A DNA stretch of 36,753 bases, from assembly GCA_026995935.1 (NCBI GenBank), contig JALWNK010000057.1:1-36753 (forward strand). Reading direction: 5' to 3'. The position numbers and the translations under genes were made by a program. This DNA comes from Deltaproteobacteria bacterium. Lineage in GTDB: Bacteria; Desulfobacterota; Dissulfuribacteria; Dissulfuribacterales; QOAL01. This document shows, piece after piece, positions 15,457-36,753 of this stretch (the first letter of the stretch is position 1; every line of letters starts with the position of its first letter). The notes below the pieces were generated by a model that was not told where the DNA came from, searched no databases, and worked only from the letters and a program-made list of their open reading frames with translations.

Positions 15457-15798
15457 GTGCAAAGAATACCAATAAAGCTTGCAAAGGCGGGGATGGTCCT
15501 TGCCAAGGACGCGGTTACCCCTGAGGGGCAGGTGCTTTGCGGGGCAGGAACAAAGCTTAGCGAGGAGCTCATTGCAAGGCTCAGGAAGCAGGGCGTGTTG
15601 GTACTCAGCGTTAAGGGGCGCCCGGTAAAGCAGCCTGGCGAAAAGTCCCTGTCCGAAAGGCTTAAGGCCCTTGATGAACGGTTTTCAAGGGTGAAAAAGG
15701 ACCCGGTGCTAAGGGCCCTTGAGCACCTTATAGGTGAATTCTGGATAGTTGAGGAAAAGGGAGAGGAATTTCTGGAAAAGCTCAAGGCATCGAAGTAA
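15457..15798 (+). CDS. Small protein upstream of an HDOD gene
   Basis: 113 residues from GTG 15457, 10 nt after gatA. The N-terminal ~60 residues (IKLAKAGMVLAKDAVTPEGQVLCGAGTKLSEELIARLRKQGV) resemble the beta-rich segment often found before HD-GYP domains; the rest is charged and helical. The HDOD gene begins at the base after its stop, so they are translationally coupled and probably act together in signalling. No catalytic motif. Confidence 0.65.
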   Translation: MQRIPIKLAKAGMVLAKDAVTPEGQVLCGAGTKLSEELIARLRKQGVLVLSVKGRPVKQPGEKSLSERLKALDERFSRVKKDPVLRALEHLIGEFWIVEEKGEEFLEKLKASK

Positions 15799-16644
15799 AT
15801 GGACACGGCCGAACTGAAAAAGAGACTTAACGATATCCAGTCCCTGCCAACCCTTCCGCCCATAGTTTCAAAGCTCAATGAAATGGTGGCGGATGAGGAT
15901 ATTACCGCCGTAAAACTGGGAAAGGTCATTGAAAAGGATCAGGTCCTTACGAGCAAGCTTCTTAAGATGGTAAACTCTTCCTTTTTTGGCTTTCCCCAGC
16001 GGATCAGCACGGTCTCAAACGCCATTGTGCTCCTGGGCTTTAACGTCATAAAGACCCTCATTGTCACCTCATCCATATTTGAGGTCATGCAGGCATCGGA
16101 TGTGGGACTTTTTGAACATTCCCTTGGCTGCGCCACTGCCTGCGGAATAATTGCAAAGATGCGCCAGATCAAGAACCCAGAGGAGGTTTCTACAGCCGGC
16201 CTCATCCACGACCTTGGAAAGATCGTGCTCCGCTCTGAGCTTCCAGATGAATATGAGGCCATAGTAAGGGAGGCCCAGGAAAGAGGGCTATACATGAGGC
16301 AGGTTGAAAAGGAGCGTCTCGGTGTGGGACATGGCGAGATAGGGGGCATGCTGGCAAGGCAGTGGAACCTTCCTGAAAGGCTGGTCTTTCCCATAGAGTT
16401 TCACCACAGGCCAGAACTTTCACCTGAATTCAAGGAGATTGCAGCCATTGTCCACTTTTCCGACATCCTCATAAGGGCTGTTGGATTCGGGTACGGTGGA
16501 GATCCCTGGGTGCCAGGCCTTGATCATGCAGCCTGGGAGCGAATCAAGCTTTCAAAGAGCCAGATGCGGGAGGTTATTGCAGAGCTTGATGAAAAGCTCG
16601 TAGAGCTCCAGGACTTTACCCTGGAGATAAAGGTGGAAGGGTAA
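15799..16644 (+). CDS. HDOD-domain signalling protein
   Basis: 281 residues; ATG abuts the previous stop. HDOD features: IQSLPTLPPIVSKLNEM at the N-terminus, EKDQVLTSKLLKMVNSSFFGF, VSNAIVLLGFNVIKTLIV, and HDLGK near residue 140 followed by EFHHRP. HDOD proteins are HD-superfamily members usually lacking phosphohydrolase activity and act as scaffolds in regulation. Here it lies directly before a GGDEF gene. Confidence 0.88.
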   Translation: MDTAELKKRLNDIQSLPTLPPIVSKLNEMVADEDITAVKLGKVIEKDQVLTSKLLKMVNSSFFGFPQRISTVSNAIVLLGFNVIKTLIVTSSIFEVMQASDVGLFEHSLGCATACGIIAKMRQIKNPEEVSTAGLIHDLGKIVLRSELPDEYEAIVREAQERGLYMRQVEKERLGVGHGEIGGMLARQWNLPERLVFPIEFHHRPELSPEFKEIAAIVHFSDILIRAVGFGYGGDPWVPGLDHAAWERIKLSKSQMREVIAELDEKLVELQDFTLEIKVEG

Positions 16645-25490: not shown

Positions 25491-26462
25491 TTGGAAAATT
25501 TCACCCTTTCACGTTTTTCTTTTGTCTTAAAGGCGGATTCTGATATTCAGTTACCCGTCTATAAAGGCTCCACCCTCCGCGGTGGTTTTGGCCATGCCTT
25601 CCGGCGTGCCTGCTGCACGGTCAGAAAAAAGAATTGTGCAGACTGCATTTTTAAAAATCAATGCGCCTATTCTTGGGTTTTCGAAACCCCTGTTCCTGAT
25701 GGTGCAGAAATGTTGAGAAAATATACCTCTGCGCCTCATCCATTTGTTCTGGAGCCTCCTGACGAAGAACGCCGCACGTATCAACCTGGTGACATCCTAA
25801 GTTTCAGGCTGGTTTTAATAGGAAGGGCCACGGATTATTTGCCCTATTTTATCTACTCATTTCACCAGCTTGGGAAAATAGGCATTGGAAAAGACAGGGG
25901 GAAATTCGAAATTGAACAGGTTATTCAGGAAGATATACCAGCGCGTGAAAGTTTGAAAGGCAGGGTGGTTTTCGAATCAGGGGAAAAGACCCTGTTTGCC
26001 ACAACCCCACCCAAGGCCTGGAAAGAGATTGTAGAATCAGATGTCCCTGCCAGAATACGCATCCGTTTCCTTACGCCTACCCGGATCAAGTATAAGGGGC
26101 ATCTTACCAAGGACTTGGAATTTCACGTCCTATTCAGAAGCATGCTTCGCCGAATCTCTCTTCTTTCATACTTTCACTGCGGCCAAAGGCTGGATGATTC
26201 CCGATTCAGGCAGCTTATTGACAGGGCCAGGGAGATAACCATCCAGGACCAGGCACTCCACTGGTACGACTGGAACAGGTGGTCAAACCGCCAGGGCACA
26301 AGGATGAAGATGGGGGGATTCATGGGGGAAATCACCTATGAAGGGGATTTTGAGCCCTTCTGGCCATACATCCGGCTAGGGGAGTATGTGCATGTAGGAA
26401 AGGGGAGCAGTTTCGGGTTGGGTAGGTATGAGGTGGTTAATGAAAAAAGGATGGAATCATGA
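25491..26462 (+). CDS. cas6: CRISPR pre-crRNA processing endoribonuclease Cas6
   Basis: 323 residues from a TTG start with no evident ribosome site; no earlier start in frame fits. RAMP-fold protein of the Cas6 DUF2276 type: VYKGSTLRGGFGHAFRRACC, a Cys block NCADCIFKNQC, GDILSFRLVLIGRA, FHQLGKIGIGKDRG, FLTPTRIKYKGHL, and a C-terminal Gly-rich loop HVGKGSSFGLGRYEV. It would cut the repeat RNA to give crRNAs for the Cmr complex. Stop overlaps cmr1 by 4 nt. Confidence 0.88.
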   Translation: MENFTLSRFSFVLKADSDIQLPVYKGSTLRGGFGHAFRRACCTVRKKNCADCIFKNQCAYSWVFETPVPDGAEMLRKYTSAPHPFVLEPPDEERRTYQPGDILSFRLVLIGRATDYLPYFIYSFHQLGKIGIGKDRGKFEIEQVIQEDIPARESLKGRVVFESGEKTLFATTPPKAWKEIVESDVPARIRIRFLTPTRIKYKGHLTKDLEFHVLFRSMLRRISLLSYFHCGQRLDDSRFRQLIDRAREITIQDQALHWYDWNRWSNRQGTRMKMGGFMGEITYEGDFEPFWPYIRLGEYVHVGKGSSFGLGRYEVVNEKRMES

Positions 26463-27772
26463 GAAAAATTGAATCATGTCCTGTAATAGAAAGCACAAAT
26501 CCATTAACAGGCTATGTGGAAAGGTGTTTTGAGGTAGAATTTATAACTCCTCTTTATGGGGGTGGTGTCGAAGCAGGGCTATGTGACACGACTTCTCCAA
26601 TAAGGGCGCCAGCAATAAGAGGACATCTTCGCTTCTGGTGGAGAGCCACCAGAGGGGCCTCTTTTCCTGACGGCAAGACCCTTAAAGAGAATGAAGATAA
26701 GATATGGGGTTCAACTGAACTACCCAGCCCTGTACAAATAAAAATTGGCCAAGTAGAAGGGAGAAAACGGTATAGGACTTACAATGCAGATAACTGTTAT
26801 GGTTTTTCTAGATATGGAGCTGAAGCCTATGCTCTATTTCCTGCTCAGCAAAATGAAACACCAAAATTAATAAAAGAGGGATTAACCTTTACGTTCCTTA
26901 TTAAATGGCCATCTGACAAAGACCTTGAAAAAGATGTTTATGCAGCCGTATGGGCCTGGCTTAATTTTGGAGGCATAGGGGCAAGAACCAGACGCGGATT
27001 AGGAGCACTTTTTGCCAAAAAGGTCCCTGATGATATTTCCAGGGATTTTTGTCCCCAGAATATTGAAAACTTTGGGAATTGGTTAAAGGCTAATTTGAAA
27101 AAGTTTGACATTTCAAATGATAGCCCTCTAGGAGCCTGGCCTGTCATGCCTGATGCTTTTTATATCTTGCCGGATATTAATGATGCTCTTTCAGCCTGGA
27201 AAGTTGCACTTGCTTGTCTGAAGCGTTTCAGGCAGGGGGAAAAAATCGGAAGAGATCTTGGACGCGGAAAAAGGCCTGGACGATCTCGCTGGCCAGAGGC
27301 TGAATCCATAAGGGAATTAGCCATGGAACAAAATAGCAAACGTAATAGAAATGATTTGAGGCTAAAAGCAAAAGATTCCCGAATACCAACAAAATATTTT
27401 CCCAGGGCCGAATTTGGCTTGCCAATAATTTTTGAAATAAGGAACGAAAATCTTAAGCCCACATTAATTCCCGGCAATAACCACGAACGTATGGCAAGCC
27501 CCCTTGTTTTGCGTCCTTTGCGTTTTTCAGATGGAAGCCATGCAGCGCTGATATACCTTTTCAAAACACCGCCCATAAGAGAGGCCCTTTTAAAACCAGG
27601 GGAGAAAGATTTATTAAGAGATGAATTGCCGATTGGAGAAGATCAAATTCGTTCCAGCGAATTAAACAAATATCAGGATTCTCCCATGAGTAGTAGCACC
27701 AATACTGGATCTGCCCTTGAGGCATTTCAGGCTTTTATTCTCAAACATAACTTTCAAAAGGTGAGCATATGA
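26459..27772 (+). CDS. cmr1: Type III-B RAMP protein Cmr1
   Basis: 437 residues. Cmr1 signatures: VEFITPLYGGGVEAG at the N-terminus, IRAPAIRGHLRFWWRATRG, GGIGARTRRGLGAL, and a second RAMP half with FGLPIIFEI and MASPLVLRP. Cas7-family subunit capping the 3' end of the crRNA/target in Cmr complexes. 4-nt overlaps on both sides. The region is visibly more AT-rich than the core genes at 7-18 kb. Confidence 0.92.
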   Translation: MRKIESCPVIESTNPLTGYVERCFEVEFITPLYGGGVEAGLCDTTSPIRAPAIRGHLRFWWRATRGASFPDGKTLKENEDKIWGSTELPSPVQIKIGQVEGRKRYRTYNADNCYGFSRYGAEAYALFPAQQNETPKLIKEGLTFTFLIKWPSDKDLEKDVYAAVWAWLNFGGIGARTRRGLGALFAKKVPDDISRDFCPQNIENFGNWLKANLKKFDISNDSPLGAWPVMPDAFYILPDINDALSAWKVALACLKRFRQGEKIGRDLGRGKRPGRSRWPEAESIRELAMEQNSKRNRNDLRLKAKDSRIPTKYFPRAEFGLPIIFEIRNENLKPTLIPGNNHERMASPLVLRPLRFSDGSHAALIYLFKTPPIREALLKPGEKDLLRDELPIGEDQIRSSELNKYQDSPMSSSTNTGSALEAFQAFILKHNFQKVSI

Positions 27773-29607
27773 GAAAGTGGCTACTTCTAATAACTGTTGG
27801 ACCTGTTCAGGATTTTATTGCCGCAGCAAGGCGGACCAGAGATCTCTGGTTTGGCTCATATTTGTTATCAGAAATAAGCAAGGCAGTCGCTAAGAGCATT
27901 TCCGATAATGTTGGTTCAGAAAACCTGATTTTCCCTGCTCCAGAAAAGATTTCAGCCTTGCAACCTGACAGTGACTTAAAAGTAGGAAATGTAATATTTA
28001 CGCAGTTGCCAGAAGATGCTGATCCAAGACAGATAATTGCTGATGCCAAGGAAGCTGCAAATAGTCAATGGAAGGAGTTTGCTGAAAGGGTATTTGTTGA
28101 TGCGAGGGAATATATAGACGAAGAAGTTTGGAACAATCAGATTGACGATGTAGTGGAATTTTATGCTGCATGGGCCGTTTATGATAGCGAAGATAAATAC
28201 AAGGAGATGAGAGGCCGTGTAATGCAAATTCTGGCGGCAAGAAAGTCGTGTCGCAATTTCAAACAGGATATGTACAGCACTAACAGGCCAAAATCCTCCC
28301 TTGATGGAGCTAGAGATTCGGTATTGCTTAAATTAAAGGAAAGAAAAAGCCTTAAAAAACGACAAAAGAACATTTTTATTGCTGAAGGTGAACAGCTTGA
28401 TGCAGTCGGATTGGTAAAACGAATTGGAGGTGGAATAAAAAGTTATCCCTCTACATGTCGTGTTGCAGCAGATACATGGATCAGGGCGGCCACCTCTTGC
28501 ATGGGGGCTCATGTAAAGCTTGGAGCCCTAAAAGAAATAGCTAAGGCCAATGATATTCCCAAGTTGAATACTAATCGCTGGCCCCAATATGAAAATTTTC
28601 CTTTTGATGCCACGATACTATTCCCAACTCGCTATAAAGACTATTATCGAGAAACAGGCATCAATTTTTCCGAATATTCAGGTATCGAAAGTCATATAGA
28701 AGAAATAAAAAATTATTTAGGAAATAAGTATCCTACGCCATATTTTGCTGTTTTATTGGCTGATGGAGATCACATGGGAAAAGCAATTTCCCATTTAGGG
28801 TCTTCCTTTCTACATAAAAATTTTTCCCAAATGCTCTCACGTTTTGCCCGTAGCACTAAAGACATTATAGCAACCTATAATGGCTGTTTGGTTTATTCGG
28901 GTGGAGATGATGTCTTGGCCTTTTTGCCATTGGATAAGGTATTGGGCTGTGCCAAAGAGCTGCATCATACATTTTGTACCTTTATGAACGACTTTGGAAG
29001 CCAAGATGACGTTCACGAAATTCAAAATACCACCCTTTCAGTGGGAATTTCTATTGGCCATTTTATTGAACCATTAGAAGACTTGCTGTCATGGGCAAGG
29101 CTTGCTGAACAAGATGCCAAAAAACCTGACAGAAATGGGCTGGCGATCCATTGGCATTCCAGAAGCGGCGCTTCCGTTGGCGTGAGAGCCCGCTGGGATA
29201 CCGGTTTTTACAAACGTCTCGATAGATGGATAGAAGCGTTTCAAAAAGGAATCATACCAAGCCGCATAATTTATGAATTACGTGACATTGCGGCAGAGTA
29301 TCAAGCATGGCCGGAAGGCCAAGAGACTTTAGAAGCTATAGCTCATGATTTGATTCGATTGCTTAAAAGGAAGAGGCAGAAAAAAACAGAAGGAACAGTT
29401 GACTGGAATTCTTTAGCAAACGAGATAGCAGCATGTCTGGATGCTGCCCCATCGCCCGCTCAAGAAGCCCCTATTTATGTACCTTCTATATTGAATCTTT
29501 CCAACGAGTGGTGGATTTCATCTCAATTTGCCAGGGCAACGGGACTTAGATGCCGGGAAGATGAAATACAGATAAAAGATGAGGAAAACAAAAATGGTAC
29601 GACTTGA
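27769..29607 (+). CDS. cmr2: Cmr2/Cas10 large subunit, HD-less, GGDD present
   Basis: 612 residues. It starts directly with VGPVQDFIAAARRTRDLWFGS, the segment that follows the HD domain in longer Cmr2 proteins, so the DNase HD domain is absent. Palm domains: DGD at 332-334 (LLADGDHMGK) and GGDD at 378-381 (VYSGGDDVLAFLPL). GGDD is the catalytic site for cyclic oligoadenylate synthesis in Cas10. So the complex is predicted to signal but not cut DNA through an HD site. This fits with the CARF proteins encoded downstream. Confidence 0.95.
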   Translation: MRKWLLLITVGPVQDFIAAARRTRDLWFGSYLLSEISKAVAKSISDNVGSENLIFPAPEKISALQPDSDLKVGNVIFTQLPEDADPRQIIADAKEAANSQWKEFAERVFVDAREYIDEEVWNNQIDDVVEFYAAWAVYDSEDKYKEMRGRVMQILAARKSCRNFKQDMYSTNRPKSSLDGARDSVLLKLKERKSLKKRQKNIFIAEGEQLDAVGLVKRIGGGIKSYPSTCRVAADTWIRAATSCMGAHVKLGALKEIAKANDIPKLNTNRWPQYENFPFDATILFPTRYKDYYRETGINFSEYSGIESHIEEIKNYLGNKYPTPYFAVLLADGDHMGKAISHLGSSFLHKNFSQMLSRFARSTKDIIATYNGCLVYSGGDDVLAFLPLDKVLGCAKELHHTFCTFMNDFGSQDDVHEIQNTTLSVGISIGHFIEPLEDLLSWARLAEQDAKKPDRNGLAIHWHSRSGASVGVRARWDTGFYKRLDRWIEAFQKGIIPSRIIYELRDIAAEYQAWPEGQETLEAIAHDLIRLLKRKRQKKTEGTVDWNSLANEIAACLDAAPSPAQEAPIYVPSILNLSNEWWISSQFARATGLRCREDEIQIKDEENKNGTT

Positions 29608-30748
29608 GATTATACCTCATGGACCTGTGATAGCCAGGGATGGACGCCCTTTTGGCAGTGGCCAATCACGCAGGATGCGTTGTTTGGAATGGATATATCC
29701 CTCAATGCTTGCCGGATCATTCAGGACATCTATAGGCAAGATGATTTCAGGCGGATCATTTGACGCTGATACAGTGAACAAACTGAAATCAATAGAGATA
29801 CGAGGCCCATTCCTTGAGCATCAAAACGAGCCTTACTTTTCTGCTCCAAGGGATATTGTTCTTGACCAGGACAATAAAGTGTTTGTTAAAAGGCCTGTTG
29901 AGTTAGGAGAGGGCGAAGGTTGTGACCTCCCTGCTTCCGGGTTGTTGCCAACCATGTTATTTCCTGAACCTGATGAAAGCTTTAAACCAAAGGCTGCCCC
30001 CATTTTTTGGTCACTAAAAAATATTGGAGCATGGTTAACAGAGCCGTCAGGAGAATCCTTTACCATGCCTGAAACATTTTCCCCTGATTCAGGTTTTGTG
30101 GAAACCATTGAACATGAGACGAGAACGCACATAAAAGTAGATCATAAATTGGGAGCCGTTAATCCGGATGAAGGCATGCTTTTCATGACGGACGGCCTAT
30201 GCATACCTCATGACATGAAGATCACAGCATTAGTGTCCTGTCCTACTGAATCAAACAGAATTCAAGAAATTTTAGATAAAATGGATATGCTTCATCCTCT
30301 TGGCGGCGAACGCAGACTGGGCTGCTGGCAAACGTCTTCTGCATCAATATATAAGTGCCCTGGTAACATAAAAGAAATATTCAAAAATGGCCCGAAGTTT
30401 GTTCGAATGATTTTGGCAACACCGGCAATTTTCTCAAATGGTTGGTATCCCGGATGGTTGAACGAAGACCTGATAGGATCACCGCCTGAAACTTCAATAG
30501 AGGTAAAACTAGTTGGCGTTTGTGTGGATCGTTGGAAACCTGTTTCTGGCTGGAGCCTGGAAAAAGGGAAGGTCGGTCCAAAACCAATACGCAGACTTGT
30601 CCCCGCCGGCAGTGTTTATTTCTTTGAAATGCTGAAAGGCAACACCTCTGAATTTGAGGGCAGATGGCTTCAATCTGTGTCCGATATGGAGCAAGACAGG
30701 AGAGATGGTTTCGGACTGGCCCTTTGGGGAATATGGGCAAAAGATTAA
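29594..30748 (+). CDS. cmr3: Type III-B RAMP protein Cmr3
   Basis: 384 residues from ATG 29594, chosen because GAGGA lies 9 nt upstream; ATG 29579 would add five residues. Opening LEIIPHGPVIARDGRPFGSG and WIYPSMLAGSFRTSIGK is diagnostic of Cmr3 (Cas5 family), as is HPLGGERRLGCW. Binds the 5' tag of the crRNA next to Cmr2. Overlaps cmr2 by 14 nt. Confidence 0.93.
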   Translation: MVRLEIIPHGPVIARDGRPFGSGQSRRMRCLEWIYPSMLAGSFRTSIGKMISGGSFDADTVNKLKSIEIRGPFLEHQNEPYFSAPRDIVLDQDNKVFVKRPVELGEGEGCDLPASGLLPTMLFPEPDESFKPKAAPIFWSLKNIGAWLTEPSGESFTMPETFSPDSGFVETIEHETRTHIKVDHKLGAVNPDEGMLFMTDGLCIPHDMKITALVSCPTESNRIQEILDKMDMLHPLGGERRLGCWQTSSASIYKCPGNIKEIFKNGPKFVRMILATPAIFSNGWYPGWLNEDLIGSPPETSIEVKLVGVCVDRWKPVSGWSLEKGKVGPKPIRRLVPAGSVYFFEMLKGNTSEFEGRWLQSVSDMEQDRRDGFGLALWGIWAKD

Positions 30749-30771
30749 TCAACTGATTGGGAGGAAAAATA

Positions 30772-31686
30772 ATGGCAAATGAAACGGTTTTATTTTTTAT
30801 TCATGCCCTTACGCCGCTTCATGTTGGTGCTGGGCGCGGTGTCAGGTTCATAGATTTACCAGTTATCAGAGAAAAAATTACTGGCTGGCCTATAGTGCCA
30901 GGCTCGGCCATAAAAGGAGTTCTGGCAGATTATTATCATGCCACGGATGCTCAACGGGAGACAAACGATAAATTGAGGTCTGCTTTTGGCATTGCAGACA
31001 AAGGCACTGTTGACGGGGGAATGCCGAATGCAGGCTCTCTGGTCTTTACTGATGCCCACCTAATTTGCTTGCCGGTAAGGAGCCTTTACGGCACCTTTGC
31101 CTGGATTACCTCCTCTATGGCACTAAAACGTTTCATGCGTGATCTTGAATCGGCTGGCAAAGCAGACGGCTTATCTGTGCCAGAGAATCCCTCTGAAGAC
31201 ATTCTGCTCATCCCAAGTGATACTGATTCGCTTCTTTGCCGAGAAGACAGAGTATTTTTAGAAGATTACGATTTTGGTTACCAAGAGGATGACTCAACCA
31301 AAAATCTGGCAGAAAAAATGGCAAATTTTCTTTATGGCGATGCCTCGGAATGGAAGCAGGAATTTATAAAGCGTTTTGCCGTTGTTCCAAATGAGGCCTT
31401 TGACTTTTTTTCTGAAATGGGCACAGAGGTCAGGGCCAGAATAAGAATAGAGGAACAAACCAAGACAGTGAAGGAAGGGGCGTTATGGTATGAGGAATAT
31501 TTGCCAGCAGAAAGCGTTCTTGCCGGCCTAATATGGTGTGATCGGATTTATGGAAGCAGTACTTTGTCGGCAACGGACCTTACTGGAGAATATTGTCAAG
31601 GCGAGCTTCATCTGCAAATGGGCGGTAATGCCACTATTGGTAAAGGGCAAGTACGCATGCTTTTTCACCAAGGAGGTGAATCATGA
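30772..31686 (+). CDS. cmr4: Type III-B backbone RNase Cmr4
   Basis: 304 residues from ATG 30772 with GGGAGG 8 nt before; a TTG at 30757 is not needed. Cas7-family: TPLHVGAGRGVRFIDLPV, with Asp28 at the position of the target-RNA-cutting Asp of known Cmr4, then WPIVPGSAIKGVLAD, AGSLVFTDAHL and GGNATIGKGQVRM. Forms the filament that cuts target RNA at 6-nt intervals. Confidence 0.95.
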   Translation: MANETVLFFIHALTPLHVGAGRGVRFIDLPVIREKITGWPIVPGSAIKGVLADYYHATDAQRETNDKLRSAFGIADKGTVDGGMPNAGSLVFTDAHLICLPVRSLYGTFAWITSSMALKRFMRDLESAGKADGLSVPENPSEDILLIPSDTDSLLCREDRVFLEDYDFGYQEDDSTKNLAEKMANFLYGDASEWKQEFIKRFAVVPNEAFDFFSEMGTEVRARIRIEEQTKTVKEGALWYEEYLPAESVLAGLIWCDRIYGSSTLSATDLTGEYCQGELHLQMGGNATIGKGQVRMLFHQGGES

Positions 31687-32048
31687 CATCTAGAGACAGC
31701 CAGAGGGCGCAAAGGGCATACCAGCGGGTGAACAAGCGTATCGAGCATGAACAGGCAGACAAATATAAATCATTCGCCCTAAGTTTTCCCGCTCTTGTAC
31801 ATTCTTGCGGCCTTGCACAGGCCCTTGCTTATGCTCAGGCAAAGAGTCTCGGCGAATTTCAGGATGATTTGGCCTTTGTGATAAACGGAAACGGCAGCAG
31901 TTTTAAGACGTTAGCGCAACAATCAAGAGAAGCGGATTTATCAGATTATAGGCGCTTGACGTATGAAGTGATTAGCGGAGCTTCCTGGATAAAACGATAT
32001 GTAGAGGCATTGTTTAAAGATTCCGACGGGGAGAATTCAGATGAATGA
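31683..32048 (+). CDS. cmr5: Type III-B small subunit Cmr5
   Basis: 121 residues, all helical: RAQRAYQRVNKRI, YKSFALSFPALVHSCGLAQ, ALAYAQAK, YRRLTYEVISGASWIKRYVEAL. This is the Cmr5 pattern and length. Lines the target-RNA side of the Cmr filament. Overlaps cmr4 by 4 nt and cmr6 by 8 nt. Confidence 0.93.
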   Translation: MTSRDSQRAQRAYQRVNKRIEHEQADKYKSFALSFPALVHSCGLAQALAYAQAKSLGEFQDDLAFVINGNGSSFKTLAQQSREADLSDYRRLTYEVISGASWIKRYVEALFKDSDGENSDE

Positions 32049-33081
32049 TCAGGCATGTCGCAATGTTGTCAATTCTGTCAATATTCATAAGGCCAATAAC
32101 GCGGGGCTGATTTTAGATCGTTATTTAAAAACAAGATATAAAAGTGAAGATCATCCCTCTGAGCGAGTTCAATTATTTAAAGCGGCAATTGCTGCCTGCG
32201 CTTCTTCAAGAGAACTATATACTCTGGCATTTAAGCGCATGGAAGAGGAACTAAAAAGAAAGCCAGCTCATAAAATTCGCTATTTAAAAAGTTATGGCAG
32301 AATTATTGTTGGTTTGTCAACAAGCAGCGCTTTGGAAACAGGAATTACTTTGCACCATATTTATGGAGTACCTACAATTCCGGCAAGTGCCATTAAAGGA
32401 TTAACAAATCACTACTGCAATTCCGTTTGGGGCAGTAAAGACGATAAATTTAAGACGGGACAAAAATACCATAAGACTATTTTTGGCAATAACGATGATT
32501 CAGGCCATATCATATTTTATGATGCATGGCTGCTCCCCAAATCAATTCAAGAGAATAGCAGTTTAATTTTGGATGTAATGACTCCGCATCATCAGGATTA
32601 TTATAAAGAGGTCCCGGATAGTGCTCCTACTGATTTTGATAAGCCCAATCCCATTACTTTTCTCTCTTTAGGCGGAACATTTCTTTTTTGCGTAGGCTGC
32701 GATGTTCCTGATGACGAAGGAGAAAAATGGGCCTCACTTTGTATGGATTTAATATCCGATGCCTTAAAATACTGGGGAATAGGAGGCAAGACAAGTGCGG
32801 GATACGGGACATTTGAACCAGATAAAAAGACAGAGGATCAAAAACGAATAGAACAGTTGTCTCCTGAAGAGAGGATTAGAGAAAAAGTTCAGAAAATGGA
32901 CTTAAAGCAGATAAAAAAGGCTTTTGGAAGAAACTGGAACAAGACCCAAAAAAGAGAAGATTTTGAAACTTTCAAACAAGCAGCGAAAGAAATTCATGGG
33001 GAAGAGATAAAAGCCCTGTTGGAAAAGTCAAACGATAAAAAAGAGAAAAAAATATTAAGGAGAATTTTGGATGCCAATTAA
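32041..33081 (+). CDS. cmr6: Type III-B RAMP protein Cmr6 with charged C-terminal extension
   Basis: 346 residues. Cmr6 hallmarks: NAGLILDRYL, VGLSTSSALETGITLHHIYG, VPTIPASAIKGLTNHYC, GHIIFYDAWLLP, DVMTPHHQDYY, GGKTSAGYGTFEP. After the usual end at about residue 264, about 80 highly charged helical residues follow (EDQKRIEQLSPEERIREKV... to KKEKKILRRIL), which are not part of the RAMP core. Overlaps the next gene by 11 nt. Confidence 0.93.
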   Translation: MNDQACRNVVNSVNIHKANNAGLILDRYLKTRYKSEDHPSERVQLFKAAIAACASSRELYTLAFKRMEEELKRKPAHKIRYLKSYGRIIVGLSTSSALETGITLHHIYGVPTIPASAIKGLTNHYCNSVWGSKDDKFKTGQKYHKTIFGNNDDSGHIIFYDAWLLPKSIQENSSLILDVMTPHHQDYYKEVPDSAPTDFDKPNPITFLSLGGTFLFCVGCDVPDDEGEKWASLCMDLISDALKYWGIGGKTSAGYGTFEPDKKTEDQKRIEQLSPEERIREKVQKMDLKQIKKAFGRNWNKTQKREDFETFKQAAKEIHGEEIKALLEKSNDKKEKKILRRILDAN

Positions 33082-33673
33082 TTTTAACATGAATATAAAC
33101 CCATTAGATTTATTAAAATTTTTCAAAGAATGCTGGGGTCAATCGATCAATCCAAGACAGATTAACCCTGTTCTAGAGACCATGAAACGATGTAAGGGGT
33201 TGATTGCCTTTGTCAGTGCAGGTTCTGGAGCATCATCTGCCAAAGAGGCCATCAATTTTCATAAACATGGCCCAGATAACCTAAGTGGACCCATGTTGCA
33301 CCATATATGGCTTTTATATTCGCCATTAAGTCAAAGTGGCGCTGAAGAACTTAAGGATTATGCTGAAAAAAGGAATATTAAATGCAGTAAAAAAAAGTTG
33401 GATATTACAGATGATGTACACAATATAAAACGCATCAAAGACCAATTGGATAAAGTTGCAGATGAAGCTATAGAAGAAGGAATGAGATATGAAGATATTG
33501 CAATTGATTTGACAGGAGGATCTAAAGTAGTAAGTCTTGGCTTTTTTCTATCTGCATTAATCTATGGCTTTAAGTTGCAAATCATGATTCCAAATGAAAT
33601 TGATGAAAATGGGCGCGCAGTTCCTGACGCAGGATCAAAGCCATTTTCCATAGAATTGCGATGTAATAAGTAA
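33071..33673 (+). CDS. CARF-only protein (cyclic-oligoadenylate sensor or ring nuclease candidate)
   Basis: 200 residues. A single CARF-like Rossmann domain: beta strand and loop GLIAFVSAGSGASSAKEAI at 43-61, and the second ligand loop DLTGGSKVVSLGFFLSAL at 146-163, the D-x-T-G-G-x-K pattern of Csm6/Csx1-type CARF domains. There is no HEPN, PD-(D/E)xK, TIR, protease or membrane segment. So it may degrade cyclic oligoadenylate, or bind it and partner another protein. It overlaps cmr6, making it the seventh gene of the coupled cmr unit. Ring-nuclease activity cannot be read from sequence alone. Confidence 0.8.
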   Translation: MPINFNMNINPLDLLKFFKECWGQSINPRQINPVLETMKRCKGLIAFVSAGSGASSAKEAINFHKHGPDNLSGPMLHHIWLLYSPLSQSGAEELKDYAEKRNIKCSKKKLDITDDVHNIKRIKDQLDKVADEAIEEGMRYEDIAIDLTGGSKVVSLGFFLSALIYGFKLQIMIPNEIDENGRAVPDAGSKPFSIELRCNK

Positions 33674-33702
33674 AAGTTGACAATTGGCCTCCTCAATAAG
33701 AC

Positions 33703-33939
33703 ATGCCAATTTTTGAGTTCATCTTCCAGACCTTTTTAGGCGAAGTCATAGTTGTCATCGCCGGTTTTATTTTAATCAAAGCCATCTTGGAAAAAGAGAT
33801 ATCAGGCATTTTGGTGGCTGGCGCATACTGGTCAGGAACAAGAGCACAGAACTGGTTAACCGGCCCATCAGAGTCAGGAAAACAAAAGAAATACTTGATG
33901 ATTCGGCAGACCTTCTTCCCCTGGGATGGGCAATGTTGA
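33703..33939 (+). CDS. 78-residue membrane protein in the type III-B locus
   Basis: Starts ATG 33703, 29 nt after the CARF-only gene; no strong ribosome site. One clear membrane helix at residues ~10-28 (TFLGEVIVVIAGFILIKAI) and a second weaker hydrophobic stretch at 34-46 (SGILVAGAYWSG), then a polar tail ending MIRQTFFPWDGQC. It is in the same frame as the next gene, 24 nt downstream. Parts of it (LVAGAYWSG...WLTG, RQTFF) resemble the start of that protein (LVALSASWAG...WFSG, RQTFF). Unknown family; a partner or truncated duplicate of the membrane module is inferred. Confidence 0.55.
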   Translation: MPIFEFIFQTFLGEVIVVIAGFILIKAILEKEISGILVAGAYWSGTRAQNWLTGPSESGKQKKYLMIRQTFFPWDGQC

Positions 33940-33963
33940 AATTTGGTTGAATGATGAAAAACT

Positions 33964-34866
33964 ATGACCAAGCTTCTAAAATTGAAAATGGCCGAATTAG
34001 GCCCCTGGTTTAATGCTGCACTGGTAGCCCTTAGCGCAAGTTGGGCAGGTAATGCCACTATGGAAACCATGAATGTGTGGTTTTCCGGCACAATAGGAGT
34101 CATTTCTTGGCCTAGATGTTTTTACGTTTCAGCGTTTATGATTTCCGTAGCATTGCTTTATCGGCAACGTCAAACATTTTTTAGACCTCGGACTAGATAT
34201 ATTGGTGCTGACATCCCCAAGCGCAGGAAACATCTGATCCTGTTTCTTTCAAATCTCGATACCAAAAGGCTGGATTTTAATGATAACAATGGTGTGCCGG
34301 AAGAATTAACGCTTACTGGTAAATTGGATGATGACATAGAGGAGATGGTACGCCTAAAAACCAGGAAGGGAAAGCCCGTGCGTTGGATATGGGAAATGCC
34401 CCTCAGGGCTATCAGACACCATCTCGGCAAGCTGGAAGGTGTAACCATTATTTGTTCCAGGGAATCCATAGAACAAGTGAACTGGTTTTTGAATATCTGC
34501 AACCGATATGAAACCCTGAAAAAGGTAAAGTTTTACGTCTTGAAAAACAAAGGTTGTAGGCGGCCAGCGTTACTTGATGGCTCTAGTGAGACTTTTTCCC
34601 CGGATTGTGGTTGGGATTTTGAGAGTTTCGATGAGTTGTCAGAAGCTGTGTGGTCATTGATCCGTATTTTAAAAAAGAGAGGGTTAAAGGAAAATGAAAT
34701 CATGATTGATTTCACCGGCGGTCAAAAAGTCACAAGTGTTGTGGCTGCTGCAACAACTTTTAACCGGAAAATCAAGGCCCAATACGTTTCAACAAATCCC
34801 GAATGGGAAGTTAGAGGTTATGATGTGATAATGGCGGCCTCAAGCACAAAAGAATTAGGATTGTGA
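33964..34866 (+). CDS. Membrane-anchored CARF protein (TM-CARF), putative cOA-responsive membrane effector
   Basis: 300 residues. Residues ~14-30 (PWFNAALVALSASWAGN) and ~43-66 (TIGVISWP...SAFMISVALLY) are hydrophobic, then a basic linker (RQRQTFFRPRTR). From residue 89 a CARF domain: strand HLILFLSNLDTKR at 90-102, and DFTGGQKVTSVVAAATTF at 249-266, the second ligand loop. No nuclease motif. CARF proteins with membrane helices (Cam1 and Csx23 types) are known type III effectors that act on the membrane after binding cyclic oligoadenylate. I cannot say whether this is one of those families. With the 78-residue protein it may form a two-gene effector. Confidence 0.8.
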   Translation: MTKLLKLKMAELGPWFNAALVALSASWAGNATMETMNVWFSGTIGVISWPRCFYVSAFMISVALLYRQRQTFFRPRTRYIGADIPKRRKHLILFLSNLDTKRLDFNDNNGVPEELTLTGKLDDDIEEMVRLKTRKGKPVRWIWEMPLRAIRHHLGKLEGVTIICSRESIEQVNWFLNICNRYETLKKVKFYVLKNKGCRRPALLDGSSETFSPDCGWDFESFDELSEAVWSLIRILKKRGLKENEIMIDFTGGQKVTSVVAAATTFNRKIKAQYVSTNPEWEVRGYDVIMAASSTKELGL

Positions 34867-35440: not shown

Positions 35441-35535
35441 TATTCTACGCAATGTTGCAAGTAGCAGAACAATCTGAATACTATGCATTGGAGAAGCACA
35501 GACCACATTCTAACTTGATTTAATAAACTTTTTTC

Positions 35536-35566
35536 TCACCACGAAGCACACGAAGGACACGAAGAG
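35536..35566 (+). repeat. CACGAAG repeat, copy 3
   Basis: TCACCACGAAGCACACGAAG plus GACACGAAGAG, same strand as copy 1, 11 nt before the cas1 start. Confidence 0.85.
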
Positions 35567-35577
35567 TAAAAATTGAC

Positions 35578-36576
35578 ATGGCCAACCTGTATATCACAGA
35601 GCAGCAGTCAATTCTTCGGAAAACCGGGGACCGTCTTCTGGTTGAAAAGGACGATAAAATCATCCTTGATGTCCAGTGCCACAAGATTGAGGCGGTGCTG
35701 ATTTTTGGCAATGTCCAGTTCACTACCCAGGCGGTACACGAACTTTTTCAACATGGCATTGAAATGGCCATATTTACGAGACGGGGCCGCCTGGTGGGGC
35801 AGATCACTTCGCCTGTAACCAAGAACATCGAACTTCGCCTTGCCCAGTTCAGGCGTTTCGATGATCCTGCCTTTAGGCTGAAAATTGCTCAAAATGTCAT
35901 ATCAGGAAAACTGAAAAACTGCCTGGCCCTGATGAAGGGCTTCAGCGCCAATCACCCGGAGATCAACATCAGGGAACAGATTAAGGCCCTGAAATCATAC
36001 TCCGACTCCGTTCCCAACACTCAATCCATTGAGGGGCTTCTTGGCATTGAGGGCAATGCGGCAAGGATTTATTTCAATGCAATGGGCAGCATGGTGCTAA
36101 AGAACTTTGTTTTTCCTGGAAGGAGAAAGCGCCCGCCTCCTGATCCTGTAAATGCCCTCCTTTCCTTCGTCTATACCATGATATTTAACGAAATTTCATC
36201 CCTTCTGGATGGCATGGGTTTTGATCCATACCTTGGCTACCTGCACAAGCCTGATTACGGCAGGCCTTCCCTTGCCTGCGATCTTATCGAGGAATTCAGG
36301 CCTTTTGCAGGCGACAGGCTTGTATTAAACCTTGTAAACAACCAGGTACTAACTCCTGATCATTTTCATTCGCATTCCAGAGGCAAGGGCGTATATCTCA
36401 CACGGGAGGGAATGAAAAAGTTCTTCAGGGAGTACGAAAGGTTTCATGCAAGGCAATTCAAGCATCCAGAGACAGGTGAAAACGTTACACTTCGCCGCTG
36501 TTACCGTATCCAGGCTGAAAAGATGGCGCGATCCATAAAAGACGGGGCCCCGTACCGCCCCATGATGATTCCTTGA
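35578..36576 (+). CDS. cas1: CRISPR integrase Cas1
   Basis: 332 residues. N-terminal beta domain (LYITEQQSILRKTGDRLLVE) and helical catalytic domain with Glu158 (LLGIEGNAARIYF), His223 (YLGYLHKPDYGRPSLACDL) and acidic residues 235-239 (DLIEEF), the metal-binding set of Cas1. It would integrate new spacers with Cas2. Start ATG 35578 follows repeat copy 3 without a strong ribosome site, so its original leader may have been altered by the repeat. Confidence 0.95.
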   Translation: MANLYITEQQSILRKTGDRLLVEKDDKIILDVQCHKIEAVLIFGNVQFTTQAVHELFQHGIEMAIFTRRGRLVGQITSPVTKNIELRLAQFRRFDDPAFRLKIAQNVISGKLKNCLALMKGFSANHPEINIREQIKALKSYSDSVPNTQSIEGLLGIEGNAARIYFNAMGSMVLKNFVFPGRRKRPPPDPVNALLSFVYTMIFNEISSLLDGMGFDPYLGYLHKPDYGRPSLACDLIEEFRPFAGDRLVLNLVNNQVLTPDHFHSHSRGKGVYLTREGMKKFFREYERFHARQFKHPETGENVTLRRCYRIQAEKMARSIKDGAPYRPMMIP

Positions 36577-36598
36577 TCGTGGCAACCGGAAGGTAAAA

Positions 36599-36626
36599 AT
36601 GCACTACATAATTTCATACGACATCC
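36599..36626 (+). pseudogene. cas2: cas2, truncated after nine codons by an insertion element
   Basis: 23 nt after cas1, with GGAAGG in front, ATG 36599 opens MHYIISYDI, the typical Cas2 first strand with its catalytic Asp. The next bases are the left end of an insertion sequence, and the frame stops shortly after. The rest of cas2 may lie beyond the element, outside the window. Confidence 0.75.
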
Positions 36627-36753
36627 TGAGGTGGTCCCCTTTTTTCGACAAGTAGTATTGTTCGCTTTCGCTGTATGAAGTAACAAGAAAACAGTGAAAG
36701 GAGAAAAGCAAATGGCAAAGAAAAAGTACAGTTCAAAGTTCAAGGCCAAGGTA
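36627..36753 (+). mobile_element. IS3-family-like insertion sequence, left end (continues past window)
   Basis: The left end TGAGGTGGTCCCCTTTTTTC is a 5'-TG start followed by a G/C-rich tip like many IS3-family terminal repeats. An 85-nt leader precedes the first transposase frame. The right end and target duplication are outside the window, so family and boundaries are tentative. Confidence 0.65.
36712..36753 (+). CDS. IS3-type transposase OrfA, N-terminal fragment (cut by window end)
   Basis: AAAGGAG is followed 8 nt later by ATG 36712. The 14 residues seen, MAKKKYSSKFKAKV, match the opening of IS3/IS911-type OrfA proteins (K-K-x-Y-S-x-x-F-K-A-K-V), which carry a helix-turn-helix for terminal-repeat binding. 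Confidence 0.7.
   Translation, partial: MAKKKYSSKFKAKV

Follow-up and report, generated by a model that had tools for sequence, protein, structure and literature searches.

An element assignable to the IS3 family interrupts the cas2 gene of a type III-B CRISPR-Cas locus in the draft genome G000 (2.59 Mb, 79 contigs), with the two parts of the gene lying at the ends of contig C57, which in its entirety is the 36,753-nt window analyzed here, and of contig C55. Very probably, the insertion is recent, and the locus has kept interference and lost its own Cas1-Cas2 integrase for new spacers; the type III CRISPR system of this bacterium would normally need cas2 for storing new memories of invaders.

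On C57, an intact cas1 (35578-36576, forward strand; 332 aa, PF01867 with E = 2.3e-97) is followed by an ATG at position 36599 that starts the peptide MHYIISYDI (36599-36625). The exact break comes after codon 9 plus one base, leaving a cas2 5´ fragment (36599-36626, forward strand, including the first base of codon 10) that is identical to the start of an uninterrupted cas2 in a related genome (locus L011 of G016), where the same nine codons continue as Cas2. A complete cas2 adjoins cas1 in 17 other related loci; this start is common to 17 complete Cas2 proteins beside related cas1 genes, with Y7 and D8 invariant. A chance open reading frame start is ruled out by the exact L011 match together with the 17 homologues, and the original prediction, which had described a cas2 interrupted by an insertion sequence after nine codons beside an intact cas1 and had allowed that the short frame might prove unrelated to Cas2, was borne out.

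The element begins at position 36627 (TGAGGTGGTCCCC...), and 127 bp of its left end, with the terminal repeat TGAGGTGGTCCCCTTTTTTCGACAA, extend to the end of C57 (36627-36753, forward strand), the last part being the start of orfA (MAKKKYSSKFKAKV..., 36712-36753, forward strand), which is cut by the contig end. Its continuation was found on C55. Reading towards the array, this contig carries 126 bp of the right end of the element, comprising the C-terminus of an IS3-type OrfB (HQSLSYKTPDEVYDFACAA followed by a stop codon) and the element end (...ACCACTTCA), then the sequence TCC and the remaining 82 cas2 codons (CAAACGACAGG...), which are in frame to the stop codon without an internal stop, and finally a leader and an array. 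The trinucleotide TCC also precedes the element on C57 (36624-36626, forward strand) and constitutes a 3-bp target duplication, and when the C57 and C55 flanks are joined at a single TCC, a seamless 91-aa Cas2 results. Read together as in L011, the two fragments give the N-terminal strand with the conserved Y-D pair followed by the ferredoxin-like core expected of Cas2 (PF09827), while the C55 3´ fragment alone aligns to positions 10-72 only of the Cas2 profile. We inferred the join from three features, namely the duplication, the continuous reading frame and the allele of the relative; no contig spans it, and ~1 kb in the centre of the element is unassembled. The presence of 126-127 bp of the element on each contig probably reflects a break of the assembly graph at k=127, due to additional element copies present in the sample. 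The right end, a duplication of 3-4 bp, the remaining codons and an array past the element were all anticipated by the original prediction, and directly after the element we found only the N-terminally truncated remainder rather than the intact cas2 that would have spoken against an interruption.

Several features assign the element to the IS3 family, in agreement with the IS3-like left end and OrfA start originally proposed. The left end was matched at 97% identity in the sister genomes G004 and G007. The complete copy in G004 (L087, on contig C129) is 1,266 bp long, has its own 3-bp AAC duplication and encodes an OrfB with HTH_21 and rve (DDE) domains, whereas the element in cas2 is itself assembled only at the OrfA start and the OrfB end. 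A homologous complete OrfA of 92 aa (L085, genome G022) has an HTH_Tnp_1 domain. The end repeats on C57 and C55 start with TG and are inverted repeats of each other over a 25-bp alignment, for which none of 5000 shuffles was as good, and both TCC at the cas2 site and AAC in G004 fall within the 3- to 5-bp duplications typical of the family. One left end of the element was found in G000, along with a 31-bp fragment on contig C51 (20477-20507; around 1500-1535 of L010), a solo right end of the same IS kind with the remainder of the element absent.

The uninterrupted cas2 in G016, a member of the same family as G000 and of a different genus, is identical to the joined C57-C55 flanks at 127 of 127 bases. 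Because the flanks match so exactly while the cas1 DNA differs at ~5% of positions (945 of 999 identical; Cas1 proteins 95% identical), the insertion is, judged from these identities, young relative either to the divergence of cas1 from that of G016 or to the time at which the module was transferred. The G016 contig stops exactly 127 bp past the cas2 ATG, which suggests that another, uninterrupted allele with different upstream sequence is present in the G016 sample. The III-B repeat of C55 was looked for in G016 and no assembled copy was found there. We also observed that the cas1-cas2 module (35462-36626 of the window, compared with L096 on G016:C141) shows 94% DNA identity across the two genera, with the high-identity stretch starting just upstream of a "tctcaccacgaagcacacgaag" repeat, and that the Cmr neighbours in G016 share only ~27-30% protein identity with the Cmr proteins of the window. 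These comparisons suggest an exchange of the adaptation module between different effector modules. Among other relatives, L074, L078, L080 and L081 (genomes G001, G007, G024 and G009) have two adjacent, differing cas2-like genes after cas1, and in G001 and on G007:C11 the cas1 open frame of ~680-690 codons has the size of an RT-Cas1 fusion.

Targeted searches of G000 for cas2, carried out with the PF09827 profile and with Cas2 of the window's own kind, both led to the same three places: the C55 remainder, a pseudogene on C16 and an intact gene on C56. The assembly contains two cas1 genes only. The original prediction had made the loss of spacer acquisition depend on there being no other cas2, and this proviso held in part: an intact cas2 does exist, but as part of a complete type I-C system on C56 (cas3, cas5c, cas8c, cas7, cas4, cas1c, cas2) with an unrelated repeat, and it is the sole intact cas2 of the assembly. 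No intact cas2 of the III-B kind was found in the G000 assembly beyond the C55 remainder and the C16 pseudogene, such that an intact Cas1 and an intact Cas2 of one type, as in a functional adaptation module, do not occur together for III-B; cas1 is intact and both cas2 copies are broken.

The array on C55 begins after a 215-bp leader that follows the cas2 stop codon and consists of eight identical 37-bp repeats and seven spacers. Six further copies of this repeat are present on C16 behind the second cas2 copy, with one spacer occurring twice within a duplicated repeat unit. The C16 cas2 has lost its first codons and carries TAG in place of the invariant Gln30. Because this truncated gene comes directly after the cas1 leader and the first few cas1 codons, cas1 and the start of cas2 look to have been deleted from C16, possibly by microhomology; at the junction (C16 about 15550-16510; 1440-2400 of L005), the first codons of cas1 are joined at GACATGGCC to approximately codon 10 of cas2. 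The C16 gene was also considered as the missing half of the C57 cas2 and ruled out, given cas1's own leader upstream, the TAG codon and only ~82% DNA identity to the C55 block. Elsewhere on C55 (about 34680-34790; 4681-4791 of L006), a single III-B repeat that carries one mismatch, together with a copy of the array trailer, lies 2.35 kb from the main array and was apparently left over from an earlier array. Directly past the main array (1-500 of L004, minus strand), we read from the sequence a VapB/AbrB-like ORF followed by a PIN-like (VapC) start.

Upstream on C57, the type III-B effector and accessory genes occupy 25491-34866 on the forward strand with all frames open: cas6 (25491-26462; Pfam CRISPR_Cas6), cmr1 (26459-27772), cas10/cmr2 (27769-29607; Cmr2_N and Cas10-Cmr2_palm2, GGDD present), cmr3 (29579-30748; Cas_Cmr3), cmr4 (30757-31686), cmr5 (31683-32048; Cas_Cmr5) and cmr6 (32041-33081), followed by two CARF-like genes, the first (33071-33673) with a weak CARF call and the second (33964-34866) recognized solely from a DFTGGQKV motif. 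The combination of Cas10/Cmr2 with Cmr1 and Cmr3-6, identified by Pfam, defines the locus as III-B, with Cmr1, Cmr4 and Cmr6 named from RAMP matches and gene order. Judged by its gene content, the effector looks intact. Between the CARF-like genes and cas1, a gene for a GxxExxY protein (TIGR04256; 35036-35407) is flanked by copies of a "caccacgaagcacacgaag" repeat.

We propose that a ~1.27 kb IS3-family element transposed recently into codon 10 of the III-B cas2, duplicating TCC, and that the assembly then broke inside the element, which would place the cas2 halves at the ends of C57 and C55 and the array on C55. Such an insertion would part cas1 from the rest of cas2 and take away the first strand of Cas2 with the invariant Asp8. 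Processing of crRNA and interference from existing spacers would continue, while the integrase for new spacers would be lost. Interference from stored spacers should persist because the III-B effector gene set is present with open frames. Loss of III-B spacer acquisition is most likely, since the insertion removes the first strand and Asp8 and the sole other III-B-type cas2 is a pseudogene. Two caveats apply: an ATG contributed by the element lies in frame with the cas2 remainder, and in principle the I-C integrase might work in trans.

If the intact I-C Cas1-Cas2, with Cas4, from the complete system on C56 served the III-B arrays in trans, these arrays would still gain spacers. Cross-type acquisition in trans has been demonstrated between two other systems, even though their repeats differed (PMC8092290). 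Here, however, the III-B repeat (37 bp, GTTCCAAACC...) and the I-C repeat (32 bp, GTCGCCCCCC...) differ completely and the Cas1 proteins of the two systems share only 36% identity, and we consider such help unlikely. A second way in which acquisition might survive is through a re-started Cas2. From the ATG in the right end of the element on C55, a 102-aa protein without Asp8 is predicted, in which the first nine residues are replaced by 20 ending in KIGYHFI. The frame is open (MAEANIKLTKSCTKIGYHFI-PNDRRR...), the chimera scores 70.6 bits against the Cas2 model, its AlphaFold model matches Cas2 structures and has a strand at residues 11-18 in the position of strand 1, and a promoter-like site (9 of 12 positions) lies just upstream. 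The promoter scan of the element right end, however, gave two matches against 1.4 expected, no more than chance, and a match in frame is expected by chance in one case in three. The alignment to the Cas2 model starts only at position 10, and D8 is lost, whereas Y7 and D8 are invariant in the 17 relatives. AlphaFold confidence was 66.9 for the chimera, whereas an intact relative modeled from a near-identical alignment reached 81.7; for the first strand, the values were 59-75 and 89, respectively. A re-started Cas2 that still works with Cas1 therefore appears quite improbable, and it is slightly harder still to accept that the element provided not only a new start codon but also a substitute for the first strand, such that the modeled chimera without Asp8 would still build a Cas1-Cas2 integrase. 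Least credible is an artefact, with the IS end misjoined to cas2 or C55 binned from another organism: both contigs do end 126-127 bp into the element, as expected of a k=127 assembly graph, and no further full left end of the element was found in the bin, but a misjoin would not account for the matching 3-bp duplication, for terminal repeats that pair with each other or for a seamless in-frame Cas2 identical to the natural allele of a relative.

Under the preferred reading, a recent insertion that very probably cost the III-B locus its integrase, the locus cleanly illustrates a CRISPR system that is apparently unable to learn while its interference genes are intact, and the natural uninterrupted allele is available from a relative. 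The insertion on C57 and C55 and the broken copy on C16 suggest two independent losses of one cas2 type beside a complete I-C system, and the lineage could be used to ask whether III-B arrays accept help in trans.

Apart from its CRISPR context, this is an ordinary IS insertion. In OrfA with HTH_Tnp_1, OrfB with HTH_21 and rve, TGA-type ends and a 3-bp duplication, the element resembles other IS3-family insertion sequences and, at the family level, shows no essential difference from them. The locus resembles other type III-B (Cmr) systems with a cas1-cas2 pair of their own in its complete Cmr effector, its Cas6, its CARF-like genes and cas1, and the array that comes after cas2. It departs from them in that cas2 is interrupted and that the second copy of cas2 plus array, on C16, is likewise broken. 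Many cas genes are known to have been hit naturally by IS elements: one survey lists 163 cases involving 20 IS families and 57 genera, and its main text names no type III case (PMC10359306). The cas2 insertion is another such case: as in those described there, an insertion sequence flanked by a target duplication lies within a cas gene whose locus is otherwise complete. It differs from the survey cases in that the cas2 of a III-B locus was hit, with the expected loss being that of new-spacer acquisition and not of interference (PMC10359306).
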